The position numbers were made by a program, and so were the translations under genes. From an uncultured Draconibacterium sp. (GTDB lineage: Bacteria > Bacteroidota > Bacteroidia > Bacteroidales > Prolixibacteraceae): a DNA stretch of 64,000 nt. Where the stretch lies: the NCBI RefSeq assembly GCF_963675585.1, contig NZ_OY776414.1, positions 3,637,001-3,701,000 of the forward strand. The letters are read 5' to 3'. The notes below the pieces were generated by a model that was given only the letters and a program-made list of their open reading frames with translations, was not told where the DNA came from and searched no databases. Below, one piece after another: positions 5,847-30,180 of the stretch (positions are counted from its first letter, which is position 1; each line of letters begins with the position of its first letter).

Positions 5847-7021
5847 CAGCGTTGGCTACTAAATGCGTCAATATCAAATGATAGTGAAAAACGTAGAGTA
5901 TTTTCCAGTGGGTGGTTGCGTTGTGTTGGCAACAAATAGGCAAAGTCGAGTGCAAATACATTCATTTTTAAACCTGCACCGGCCGTAATAAACTTACGGT
6001 TACCCTTGTTTTCGTGCTCGTAAAAATATCCGGCACGGAGCGCAAATTGTTTATTGTACCAGTATTCAACACCTACCGACCAGGTAATTTCCTGAAACTC
6101 TTCTTTCATTCCGCCCGGCGCATCGCCAAACGATTTAAAAATACCTTCGATAGTACCAATATCTGAGTTAATACCACCGGCCCAAATTACACCATCATCA
6201 CCATAATCGGTTGAATCAACAGGAGGAGTTGGAACCAGTAATTTATTGGCTTCCATCGAAAACGAGAATGAATTGTAATCATCCATTTCCATGGTATAAG
6301 AAGCTCCAAGTTTTAAGGTTGTTGGGATAAAGTCTTTTACTTCACCTTCGGTATATGAAATTTTTGAACCAATATTCTGAATATTAATACCCGCAGAAAA
6401 TGCATTGTCTTTTCTTTGTCTTCTGAATTCGTTGTAATAATAGAAAGCAACGTCGGCAGCAAATGCATTACCTGCATGTGTTTCAACACCATTTACCAAC
6501 TGCCCACCGGTAAGATCGGAACGTATATAACGAATAGCCACTGCTCCCGAAAAAACATCCGACAGTTTACGTGAATAACCTAAATCGATGGCAAACTCAT
6601 TTGGACTTTGTTGTCCGTTAAATTCACCAATATCGCTGGTAAATACAATATCACCTAAAGAAAAATAACGCAACGAAGCACTTACTGCCTGCACATCGTC
6701 GATTTTTTTGTAGCCCGACAAATACGCAAGGTTTATGTCGTCAACTAAATTACGAAGCCATGGAGAATAAGATAATCCTACACCCATGTCGCTCTCCATA
6801 AAAATATATTTTGCAGGATTCCAGTGTTGTGAATTTACATCGGCAGATGTTCCAACACCTGCATCACCCATACCACCGGCTCTCGAATCGGGAGTAATTG
6901 CTAAAAACGGAACCGCAGTAGTAATGGTATTGGCACCAGATAAAGTTCCTTGAGCCATTAAGTTCTCGGTAAGCAAAAAAGTAAGGGCTAAAACAACAAA
7001 AAGTCTAAAAATTTTGATCAT
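5846..7021 (-). CDS. porV: Type IX secretion system outer membrane protein PorV
   Basis: PorV is the outer-membrane beta-barrel that shuttles type IX cargo to the PorU sortase. The protein shows a signal peptide (MIKIFRLFVVLALTFLL ... MAQ) and the family opening AVPFLAITPDSRAGGMGDAGVGTSADVNSQHWNPAKY, then many amphipathic strands and a C-terminal strand ending in SFDID. I chose the start at 7021 (391 aa): a longer frame to 7069 exists but a -7 box TATCTTTG at 7051-7044 lies inside it and the signal peptide begins at 7021. It lies next to porU and gldJ, as in Flavobacterium johnsoniae. Confidence 0.95.
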   Translation of the reverse strand: MIKIFRLFVVLALTFLLTENLMAQGTLSGANTITTAVPFLAITPDSRAGGMGDAGVGTSADVNSQHWNPAKYIFMESDMGVGLSYSPWLRNLVDDINLAYLSGYKKIDDVQAVSASLRYFSLGDIVFTSDIGEFNGQQSPNEFAIDLGYSRKLSDVFSGAVAIRYIRSDLTGGQLVNGVETHAGNAFAADVAFYYYNEFRRQRKDNAFSAGINIQNIGSKISYTEGEVKDFIPTTLKLGASYTMEMDDYNSFSFSMEANKLLVPTPPVDSTDYGDDGVIWAGGINSDIGTIEGIFKSFGDAPGGMKEEFQEITWSVGVEYWYNKQFALRAGYFYEHENKGNRKFITAGAGLKMNVFALDFAYLLPTQRNHPLENTLRFSLSFDIDAFSSQR

Positions 7022-27043: not shown

Positions 27044-27090
27044 ACTGTTCACTGCCACTGCTTACTGATCACTGCGACTGATTACTGACT
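27044..27090. repeat. Heptanucleotide tandem repeat (ACTGATC type)
   Basis: ACTG recurs at 27044, 27051, 27057, 27064, 27071, 27077 and 27084, a 7-bp period with two 6-bp steps. It runs into the stop codon of the DUF6261-like gene (27089-27091). Confidence 0.8.
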
Positions 27091-27814
27091 ACTCCTCCGG
27101 GTCGTCATCCTTTTTATTACGTCCGTCGCGCTGGCTAAGGCGCTTGTTGTATTTATTGATTCGTTCGTTCAGTTCAGCAACAAAATCTTCGTATGCTTCG
27201 GGTCCGTCAACCACAATTAAAGCATCGAGCAAACGGATAACATTGCGGAAAGCCGCATCCAGTTGTTTACGGGCAGTTTTCATTTTCACCGGTGTTTTTG
27301 CGCTTTCGTCGGTGTAGCGTTCGCCCACCAAAGTAACCACTGCCTGGTTTTTGGCTTTTAATTCGGGCAGCCAGGGTGTAAGGCCCACCAAAGTCATTTC
27401 GCCCGCAAATTTTGTTTCAAGCAGCTCAATAAGTTTATCGGTAGCTGCGGTTTGCTGGTCGTAAGGTTTTGTGGTAAGGCCGGCAAAACCATCGAAAGCA
27501 ATTTTAAGTTTTCGGGCGGCTTCGCGTACATCTTCGTTAAAATGGCGCAAGGCAGCGTCAATCATATCTTCCATACCCAGTGTTATGGTATCGCGCTCGT
27601 GGTCGGCATCGGCTATGGGGCCGGTAAAAATACTTTTCTGAACCACATCAAGCGCTTCGCCTTCGTTGGCAATTGCGGCTTCGTAGGCCGGATAATACCG
27701 CTGAATTTTTAAAGCCTCAACCGTAAAACGAACAATCAACTCGTTTACTTCGGTGTTAAAATTGTAGTGCTCTTCGTTGCGAAGATGGGTTAAATGCAAA
27801 ATTTTAATTTCCAT
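27089..27814 (-). CDS. DUF6261-like small helical protein of unknown function
   Basis: The 241-aa soluble protein begins MEIKILHLTHLRNEEHYNF and is almost wholly alpha-helical, with EALDVVQKSIFTGPIADADHERD, ELLETKFAGEM, LKAKNQAVVTLVGERY and a C-terminal AAFRNVIRLLDALI ... YEDFVAELNERINKYNKRL followed by a charged tail (KKDDDPEE). The pattern resembles DUF6261, a Bacteroidota family of unknown function (name from recall). No catalytic motif, signal or membrane segment is seen. Its 5' leader carries a striking 42-bp periodic array (27876-28099) with a promoter beyond it, so the array is probably transcribed. Heptad repeats touch its stop codon. Confidence 0.7.
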   Translation of the reverse strand: MEIKILHLTHLRNEEHYNFNTEVNELIVRFTVEALKIQRYYPAYEAAIANEGEALDVVQKSIFTGPIADADHERDTITLGMEDMIDAALRHFNEDVREAARKLKIAFDGFAGLTTKPYDQQTAATDKLIELLETKFAGEMTLVGLTPWLPELKAKNQAVVTLVGERYTDESAKTPVKMKTARKQLDAAFRNVIRLLDALIVVDGPEAYEDFVAELNERINKYNKRLSQRDGRNKKDDDPEE

Positions 27815-27875
27815 AATCGGTTTTAATTTATTGGTTAATACTGATTCTAATTACCATTACTCAAAAAGTAGGGTG

Positions 27876-28099
27876 TCGCGGTTCCGCGAAAATGTGTTTC
27901 AGATTGTTTACAGGATTTCGCCGGTGTGCGACAAGCTGATTTTTATACAAAACAAGGTTTCGCCAACGTGCGACAAGTCCACCGGAATATAAAAGGAAGT
28001 GTCGCGGGGCTGCGAAAGTCTGTTTTCGTTTAATTTGAACCGTTCGCGGGGCTGCGAATACTTGTTTTAATTTGATTTTATTGTTTCGCGCACTTGTAG
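27876..28099. repeat. Exact 42-bp-period array of 14-bp palindromic cores TCGC-N6-GCGA
   Basis: Cores start at 27876, 27918, 27960, 28002, 28044 and 28086, each exactly 42 bp apart. Five are perfect TCGC-N6-GCGA; the sixth keeps only the left half (TCGC). The N6 differ (GGTTCC, CGGTGT, CAACGT, GGGGCT twice) and the 28-bp spacers are unlike each other and AT-rich. The array starts 62 bp before the ATG of the DUF6261-like gene and lies downstream of its likely promoter, so it should be in the mRNA leader, where each core can form a 4-6 bp hairpin. No cas genes are near. Confidence 0.95.
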
Positions 28100-28144
28100 A
28101 GTTATACTTTTATTCATTTTTATTTGTGTTTGTTAGTAATATTT

Positions 28145-28176
28145 CAAAGCTACAACGATAGGGAGATATAAGTCAA
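28145..28176 (-). promoter_or_regulatory. Promoter for the DUF6261-like gene, upstream of the array
   Basis: On the minus strand TTG (28176-28174), 21 bp, then TAGCTTTG (28152-28145) fits the Bacteroidota -33/-7 pattern with correct spacing. Transcription would begin near 28138 and run through the whole array. Confidence 0.6.
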
Positions 28177-28224
28177 GGGGTTAAGAGGGGTTATAGAACT
28201 TATTTTACCTCCGCTGGTGCGCAA

Positions 28225-28273
28225 TTGTATGGCATTCCCGGTTTTAAACTACACGATACAATCGTGCCGGAGC
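28225..28273. repeat. Palindromic repeat, copy 1
   Basis: TTGTATGGCAT and ACACGATACAA form an imperfect stem around TCCCGGTTTTAAACT. It matches copy 2 (29189-29237) at about 43 of 49 positions. The truncated transposase frame runs out of it. Confidence 0.85.
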
Positions 28274-28977
28274 GGGGTTCTTTACTTCATGAGACAGGGA
28301 TAACAATCGACGCCATTAGAGTAGACTCAGCTTCTTACTCCTATGAAATAATTAAAGCCATTGAAATGAATTCAAAACGCTTTTTTGTAAAAGCGAGAAT
28401 GTCAGGTACTTTAGAAAAGGCCATCGGCAATATTCAGCAGTGGAAAGAAGTAAAAGTAGGCGATAAAATACTACTCAGAGGCTCAACTACTATTAAGCCA
28501 TTTGAACGAGCAGCCAGAGATTCTGGAGACACCTCCGAGAATTTAAAAACTTACCGTATAGTAGTAACCAAAGAGCCTCGAAGAGATGGACAGATAAATG
28601 CTTTTACGGGAGAAGCTTGTAATTACAGCCCGATTATGACTAACGATTTTGACCTGACAGATGATGATGTTGTCTTTTTTTATAATGCAAGAGGCATGCA
28701 AGAAAGGGAGTTTGATGTTTTAAAGAACGATTTTGGGTGGGACAAAATGCCCTTTTCTAAACTTGAGCAGAATACTGTGTTTCTACTGATTATGGCCATG
28801 TGTCGGAACTTTTATGCACACATCATTAAAAAGTTCTCAGAAAGGGTAGATTTTTTATCAGCAAACTTTAGAATTAAAAAATTCATATTTCGTTTTATCT
28901 GTATTCCTGCTAAATGGATACGATCGGGGCGAACAATCAAATTGAGAATGTATGGAAAACTTGCGTTTAAAACATAA
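28273..28977 (+). pseudogene. Truncated IS1380-family transposase
   Basis: The remnant encodes the C-terminal half of an IS1380-type DDE transposase: RVDSASYSYEIIKAIE, FFVKARMS, and FDVLKNDFGWDKMPFSKL followed by a QNTVFLLIMAMCRNFYAHII segment, with the basic tail typical of the family. Full proteins are about 430 aa; here about 235 aa remain and the N-terminal part, including early catalytic residues, is missing. The frame has no proper ATG: the first TTG lies in a palindromic repeat. A second copy of that repeat follows it, so a deletion by recombination or nested insertion is likely. It is not expected to be active. Confidence 0.85.
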
Positions 28978-29290
28978 AAACATTTAAAGTTAACCTCTGG
29001 ATACTGATATAGTAAGGAAGAACTAATTTCAATGGGAGTATATTAGCCACCCCGAAAAGATTCAGACATCCTATACTAAAAGAAACAGAAAAAGCCATTT
29101 TTGTAAGCAAAAAATACTCGGATAATTTTAAATTTTGTACATGACAAATAGTTTAACGCACTTGAAGTGGAGACATGCGGATTCTAGGTTGTATCGCGTT
29201 CCCGGTTTTAAACCACGCGATACAATCGCGCGGGAGCAGTGCGACTGACCACTGATCACTGATCACTGATTACTGACCACTGACCACAGC
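28978..29290. other. Intergenic region of 313 bp with repeats
   Basis: It holds the tail of the IS remnant, palindromic repeat copy 2 and heptad repeats. No gene was recognised in the first 200 bp. Confidence 0.6.
29189..29237. repeat. Palindromic repeat, copy 2
   Basis: A perfect 11-bp stem, TTGTATCGCGT and ACGCGATACAA, with a 15-base loop containing CCCGGTTTTAAACC. It is a direct repeat of copy 1 on the other side of the IS1380 remnant. Confidence 0.9.
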
Positions 29291-29299
29291 TCACTGTTT
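29244..29299. repeat. Heptanucleotide tandem repeat (ACTGATC type)
   Basis: Eight in-phase heptads (ACTGACC, ACTGATC twice, ACTGATT, ACTGACC twice, ACAGCTC, ACTGTTT). The last ones run into the coding end of the DUF4130 gene, covering its stop codon at 29291-29293. Confidence 0.88.
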
Positions 29300-30068: not shown

Positions 30069-30180
30069 AGAAGTTAGAAGTTAGAAGCAAGAATCAAGAT
30101 GCCAAAACTCTAAACACTGAACACTGATCACTGAATACTGAACACTGATCACTAAACTCTAAACACTGAACACTGCCACT
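30069..30180. repeat. Sixteen consecutive heptanucleotide repeats between the repair genes
   Basis: Sixteen 7-mers run in perfect phase: first AGAAGTT (twice), AGAAGCA, AGAATCA, AGATGCC, then the TGAACAC / TGATCAC / TAAACAC type, ending at the stop codon of the radical SAM gene (30179-30181). Confidence 0.92.

Follow-up and report, generated by a model that had tools for sequence, protein, structure and literature searches.

Most DUF6261 genes examined are accompanied by helically phased arrays of palindromes that may be read by the DUF6261 protein itself

In an uncultured Draconibacterium, the region in front of a DUF6261 gene carries a row of short palindromes placed at a strictly constant step, and the question raised by this locus is what could read such a row, in which form it would be read, and which role falls to the adjacent gene. 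The locus lies in a window of 64 kb (the whole stretch of DNA that was analysed), itself part of a 6.03-Mb genome, and its features are collected in Table 1. The assignment of the gene to DUF6261 in the original prediction agrees with the match of its protein to PF19775 (E 3.8e-38, 131 bits, with a gathering cut-off of 27); the protein is 80% identical to one from Draconibacterium orientale, and its closest named relatives are found in D. orientale, D. aestuarii, D. mangrovi and Maribellus. The cores begin about 60 bp upstream of the gene, and the exact pattern TCGCN6GCGA occurs five times in the window, each time within the array (cores 1 to 5). The predicted 42-bp row with five intact TCGC-N6-GCGA cores was thus recovered, the pitch being exactly 42 bp and the 28-bp spacers mutually different, as had also been stated. 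The array had been drawn from 27876 to 28152; it is real, and the right-hand end had been placed slightly too far, as unit similarity delimits it to the interval in Table 1. A -33/-7 match that had been placed beyond the array was not found near it in a strict scan for TTTG-N17-22-TAnnTTTG. The windowed autocorrelation at lag 42 (0.57) is the maximum of the window over lags 20-90. Genome-wide, pairs of cores 42 bp apart with 0 mismatches are confined to this array and two isolated places; when one mismatch is allowed there are 21+10 matches, versus 2+2 for the reversed pattern, and the places listed outside the array form no row.

Table 1. Coordinates in the window of the DUF6261 gene, the array and its cores
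Feature	Position	Strand	Evidence or remark
DUF6261 gene, 241 aa, array-associated	27089..27814	-	Pfam PF19775, 131 bits
54-bp gap, array to start codon	27815..27868	-	without strict -33/-7 promoter match
Array, six 42-bp units	27869..28120		unit detection; autocorrelation 0.57-0.58 at lag 42
Core 1, TCGCGGTTCCGCGA	27876..27889		
Core 2, TCGCCGGTGTGCGA	27918..27931		
Core 3, TCGCCAACGTGCGA	27960..27973		
Core 4, TCGCGGGGCTGCGA	28002..28015		
Core 5, TCGCGGGGCTGCGA	28044..28057		
Core 6, degenerate	28086..28099		left half only (TCGC...GTAG)

The surroundings contain further repeated elements. Beyond the array lies the C-terminal remnant of an IS1380-family transposase (window 28225-28977), near which two similar stretches (window 28205-28285 and 29188-29240) carry a CGATACAATCG-like sequence, exact sites for CGATACAATCG numbering two in an 800-kb sample of the same genome. 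Seven-bp repeats of the ACTGATC type occur in gene gaps (window 27044-27093, 29244-29296 and 30113-30175), and such repeats are able to imitate lag-42 signals.

Of 61 genomes scanned with the DUF6261 model, 27 were positive, as were 12 of 395 genomes drawn from the phylum. From the profile matches, a sample of 122 loci and not every listed place was taken; 121 contained a DUF6261 ORF, and removal of four duplicates left 117. Arrays were called at lags of 40-43 with a score of at least 0.5. By this measure, 100 of the 117 loci carry an array within 1.3 kb upstream and six carry one downstream, the latter all belonging to one clade and being represented in the window's own genome by an array that sits where two convergent genes meet at their 3' ends; no locus has arrays on both sides at threshold. 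The pitch of the upstream arrays is 42 bp in 54 cases, 41 bp in 43, 40 bp in two and 43 bp in one. Among the remaining 11 loci, six have their best lag at 42 or 43 bp below threshold and five give no signal, including one truncated gene call and one contig end. In control chunks of the window, 94 of 96 stayed below 0.5 at every lag, and the other two had their best lag at 28 bp. The predicted tie between array and family thus extends to the flanks of homologues, and the objection that homologous loci lack such arrays falls away. The association reaches distant families of the phylum: the DUF6261 gene of a Prevotella nigrescens megaplasmid has an array (0.84 at lag 41) that lies just upstream of the homologous start and overlaps the annotated one, and a faecal contig filed as phage has an array at its DUF6261 gene (0.52 at 41, 0.51 at 42 and 0.60 at 83). 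Each array comprises 4-19 near-palindromic sites, and the cores differ from locus to locus. A coding repeat was ruled out, as a 41-bp unit is not divisible by three, and a second array at locus L239 was dismissed as a simple repeat. The gene and its phased array form a widespread module.

The form in which the arrays are read was approached through conservation between units, computed without a chosen centre and with column shuffles as the null. Conservation peaks at 42 and 10.5 bp in the 42-bp arrays and at 41 and 10.25 bp in the 41-bp arrays, with harmonics 3 and 5 far lower; the fourth harmonic (10.5 bp) reaches z=14.5 in 56 42-bp arrays and z=9.3 in 20 divergent ones, and the 10.25-bp rhythm z=12.4 in 37 41-bp arrays and z=9.9 in 12. 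Because two palindrome arms 10 bp apart would by themselves yield part of a 10.5-bp signal, the region outside the core was tested, using arrays with arms of at least 4 bp (n=75, 38 and 26 by redundancy cut). A second hump of conservation is present one turn outside the palindrome: conservation at positions 12.5-18.5 from the dyad is higher than at 9-11.5 and 19.5-21, and the hump exceeds both troughs at p<=0.004 even in the 26 divergent arrays. Of 531 core-to-core gaps measured, 498 are 41 or 42 bp long, detection itself favouring regular arrays. The palindrome centre is even in 39 of 42 42-bp arrays and odd in 20 of 38 41-bp arrays, a difference between pitches that has p 1e-5 in the full set and p 0.04 among the most divergent arrays. 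Between arrays of related loci, identity is 0.79 in the core versus 0.71 in the spacer, over 69 non-independent pairs still alignable above 0.58, many of them identical. The predicted phasing at about four turns, with one face of the DNA being read, finds support in the helical rhythm, the outer hump and the core spacing, and selection on half-sites is likewise supported.

The same measurements bear on a very different possibility, in which transcription of the array would yield repeated hairpin RNAs as ligands of the protein encoded downstream, as in type III toxin-antitoxin systems. The sections of PMC8860590 drawn on here describe such operons as tandem repeats directly upstream of a protein gene, a plan that ToxIN, CptIN and TenpIN share with the DUF6261 loci, where one small protein gene follows the repeats; in some loci the array comes within 3 bp of the start codon and may lie in the transcript. 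However, departures from pairing in the stems of 106 arrays, read on the gene strand, comprise 118 G-U and 132 A-C pairs, without a G-U excess, and RNA folding has only a slight advantage over shuffled sequence (z of -1.7 for the gene strand and -2.1 for the opposite one). A search of Rfam returned one match, far below the gathering score. Promoter-like TTG-N18-22-TAnnTTTG motifs precede the array in 4 of 100 loci, versus about 1.0 expected matches, follow it in 2 of 100, versus about 0.6, and are absent inside arrays, versus 0.7 expected. Arrays that lie downstream of the gene, in the six loci of one clade, or that have no gene at all do not fit such an operon either, and DUF6261 displays no homology to ToxN, CptN or TenpN: toxin families gave no match in Pfam or NCBIfam at E 0.001, and PADLOC at E 0.1 gave weak matches only, the best at E 0.0024. 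A toxin-antitoxin arrangement is therefore very unlikely, and the row of transcribed hairpins in the original prediction is not supported, although the array could still be transcribed; the window array itself has no match to the strict promoter pattern. Double-stranded DNA read on one face is favoured over RNA hairpins because of the 10.5-bp rhythm, the outer hump and the absence of a G-U excess: the arrays behave as double-stranded DNA does, their conservation rising along one face with roughly every turn of the helix and being strongest at the palindromic core.

If the arrays are read as DNA, the protein encoded beside them is the first candidate reader. Once overall identity is removed, core similarity is predicted best by identity in residues 6-20 of DUF6261 (partial r 0.36, 0 of 2000 permutations, 486 protein pairs). 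For residues 1-20 the relation to core similarity is +0.39 for amino acids and +0.04 for synonymous codons (302 pairs), synonymous values elsewhere in the gene rising to +0.24; since the signal lies at the level of amino acids and not of synonymous codons, mere linkage between the array and the neighbouring 5' end is disfavoured. The signal disappears after thinning below 80% identity (P 0.39), is positive in three of six clades (0.67, 0.38 and 0.74), null in two and negative in one (-0.44), and positions 182 and 61, taken singly, reach the scores of N-terminal ones. Comparison with PDB sequences revealed no relative (none below E 0.16), Pfam gave no DNA-binding family and nothing except DUF6261 in the window protein, and PHROGs gave weak matches only (best E 0.0038).

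The reader could instead be a third protein, or the arrays could be dispersed, satellite-like DNA, with DUF6261 as a frequent passenger. All eight DUF6261 paralogues of the window's genome are acidic, their net charges ranging from -6 to -14, an unusual trait among DNA binders that speaks for such a view, and arrays do exist apart from the gene. In 464 kb of this genome, window included, lags 41/42 reached at least 0.5 in the window array, in a stand-alone array (L161), in a 21-bp-period array (L146) and in a stretch periodic at many lags (L155); a further 400 kb yielded the array of another DUF6261 gene (L195), a stand-alone array (L179), a many-lag stretch (L191) and a masked run of N. The 864 kb thus hold two arrays of DUF6261 genes, two clear gene-less arrays and one of 21-bp period. 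The objection that arrays might also occur at places without the gene family thus holds in part, yet the three stand-alone arrays found in this genome share cores with arrays of its own DUF6261 paralogues. One of them, C4:3942k, upstream of an ECF sigma gene, has the core GCTTA-N3-TAAGC in common with the array of paralogue L080; another, C4:46k, upstream of an XhoI-type restriction-modification pair, has TTRCA-N4-TGCA in common with that of paralogue L002; the third, found by its core, stands before a DUF488 gene (C1:83k). No DUF6261 remnant was detected beside any of the three.

The TTRCAN4TGCA type allows gene and array to be compared across the genus. It is present in 15 of the 26 genomes with DUF6261, a count that includes leader arrays (14 of the 15 have it at a non-leader place), and in 0 of 11 negative ones, relatedness not being controlled. 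This distribution stands against a passenger role, together with the association of gene and array in 106 of 117 loci and the co-variation of residues 1-20 with the core at the protein level. Furthermore, the arrays of the eight paralogues all differ in sequence, so that one third-party reader for all of them is hardly possible. On the other side, for six of the 15 array-bearing genomes the loci examined include no DUF6261 from the matching clade (G013, with a partial gene 95% identical to a clade member, being counted as having it), and of the 37 non-leader places of this core pair outside the window's genome, from which three single matches were left out, 34 were retrieved and 33 are array-like, a partly circular count as they were selected by the core pattern. 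Copy number, moreover, changes by approximately whole units: just after the ribosomal L17 gene, four species have a common stand-alone array (L272, L280, L289, L298) whose length varies through gaps of 42, 42 and 124 bp, together with single bases. In stand-alone arrays, once those of 21 bp are removed, the 10.5-bp harmonic (0.088) rises above its neighbours, but the 7-bp harmonic (0.094) is as strong. In 309 kb of a DUF6261-free genome (G019), too little to be decisive, the sole lag-41/42 match (0.52, L314) is also periodic at 21 and 35 bp, and its lags suggest a 7-bp pattern. Taken with both sides of this evidence, a third reader or satellite-like DNA is considered unlikely.

Mobility could also explain copies with and without a gene. 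REP/RAYT systems are described, in the parts of PMC3733652 drawn on here, as palindromes in intergenic regions that are linked to a gene family and also occur as stand-alone copies, features that recur in the DUF6261 system; gene and array would then form the full element, moved by DUF6261 or by a transposase, and stand-alone arrays its gene-less derivatives. The RAYT protein is an HUH tyrosine transposase, whereas Pfam finds no transposase family in the window protein, and DUF6261 arrays have a fixed, near-helical pitch and alter their copy number by about whole units. The genes that flank the window copy are absent beside its ten nearest relatives, as expected of a mobile element, and ORFs of an IS200-like transposase family, presumably of the REP-associated type, occur near six DUF6261 loci (among them L167, L168 at about 1881-2653 and L239 at 6354-6905, the last with Y1_Tnp). 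In L288 (3498-4059), a DUF6261 fragment with a 73-aa match adjoins a stand-alone array, which is perhaps a decaying module. Against these points, the arrays are one-sided, and transposon ends need no fixed internal pitch. A mobile repeat of this kind is accordingly rated quite improbable.

Recognition by DUF6261 itself thus appears as the likeliest mechanism on the sequence evidence, and it is on balance probable, by a modest degree, that the protein recognises its own array and builds a phased complex on it. Most DUF6261 genes bear an array of their own in cis, with a pitch of 41 or 42 bp that corresponds to about four turns of the helix; in this mechanism, the protein would read it chiefly through its first ~20 residues, presumably as a symmetric oligomer lined up along the array. 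In leader arrays, the resulting nucleoprotein row may further control expression of the gene itself, and it may also form on arrays with the same core elsewhere in the chromosome; because six loci bear the array downstream, leader autoregulation would not be universal.

The closest parallel is ParR/parC of type II plasmid partition, for which the portions of PMC5016525 drawn on here describe repeated sites beside the gene of the binder, an ordered protein superstructure, an N-terminal DNA-binding domain and repression of the binder's own promoter. DUF6261 arrays are likewise repeated sites beside the gene of a proposed binder, but their pitch is 41-42 bp, in contrast to the 10-bp parC repeats of that account. 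A motor gene is required by ParR/parC, whereas no recurring partner was found beside DUF6261: in 35 clusters, the best neighbour family, mostly within about 1.3 kb, occurs in four, and 19 proteins near the eight paralogous genes (small ORFs left out) belong to unrelated families without a motor partner. The plasmid binder is a ribbon-helix-helix protein, for which the DUF6261 N-terminus has no Pfam or PDB sequence match, and as many as 10 DUF6261 matches occur in one chromosome, their arrays being unlike.

The whole looks like a hitherto undescribed protein-DNA system. Searches of open-licence papers in PubMed Central, one of which mentions DUF6261, revealed no description of 41- or 42-bp repeats, of phased inverted repeats in Bacteroidetes or of iterated operators of this kind, nor of such palindromes in Draconibacterium, an absence that is no proof. 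A family of unknown function is hereby tied to a precise DNA target in cis, which provides the first testable function for DUF6261; if binding is confirmed, the paralogues would constitute a naturally occurring collection of separate protein-DNA pairs and offer a route to the study of helical phasing in the assembly of large complexes. More tentatively, and with a rather low expectation of being correct, the modules could represent a new class of self-specific DNA scaffolds, in which many mutually distinct protein-array pairs of one chromosome place an oligomer every two turns on one face, stand-alone arrays with the same core serve as remote addresses, and separate codes address or organise the chromosome.

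One core type also occurs at 21-bp steps, half the usual pitch. Four species have 21-bp-period TTRCA-N4-TGCA arrays (L276, L281, L290 and L296, at about 3.9-4.6 kb in each) near a 491-aa gene, which we take to be IlvC, and a gene of 224-226 aa, with an extra small ORF nearby in L276. In the window's genome, copies resembling TGCGAGTTA are followed at 21-bp steps by copies resembling TAACTCGCA, forming half arrays that face each other (L240 / L146 1180-1380, G000:C4 about 641.2 kb). In three cases, genes of defence type lie near arrays (L231 5583-7851, L232 6442-9213 and L238 4724-5515), encoding an XhoI-type restriction-modification pair, an MmeI-type enzyme and a HamA domain protein.
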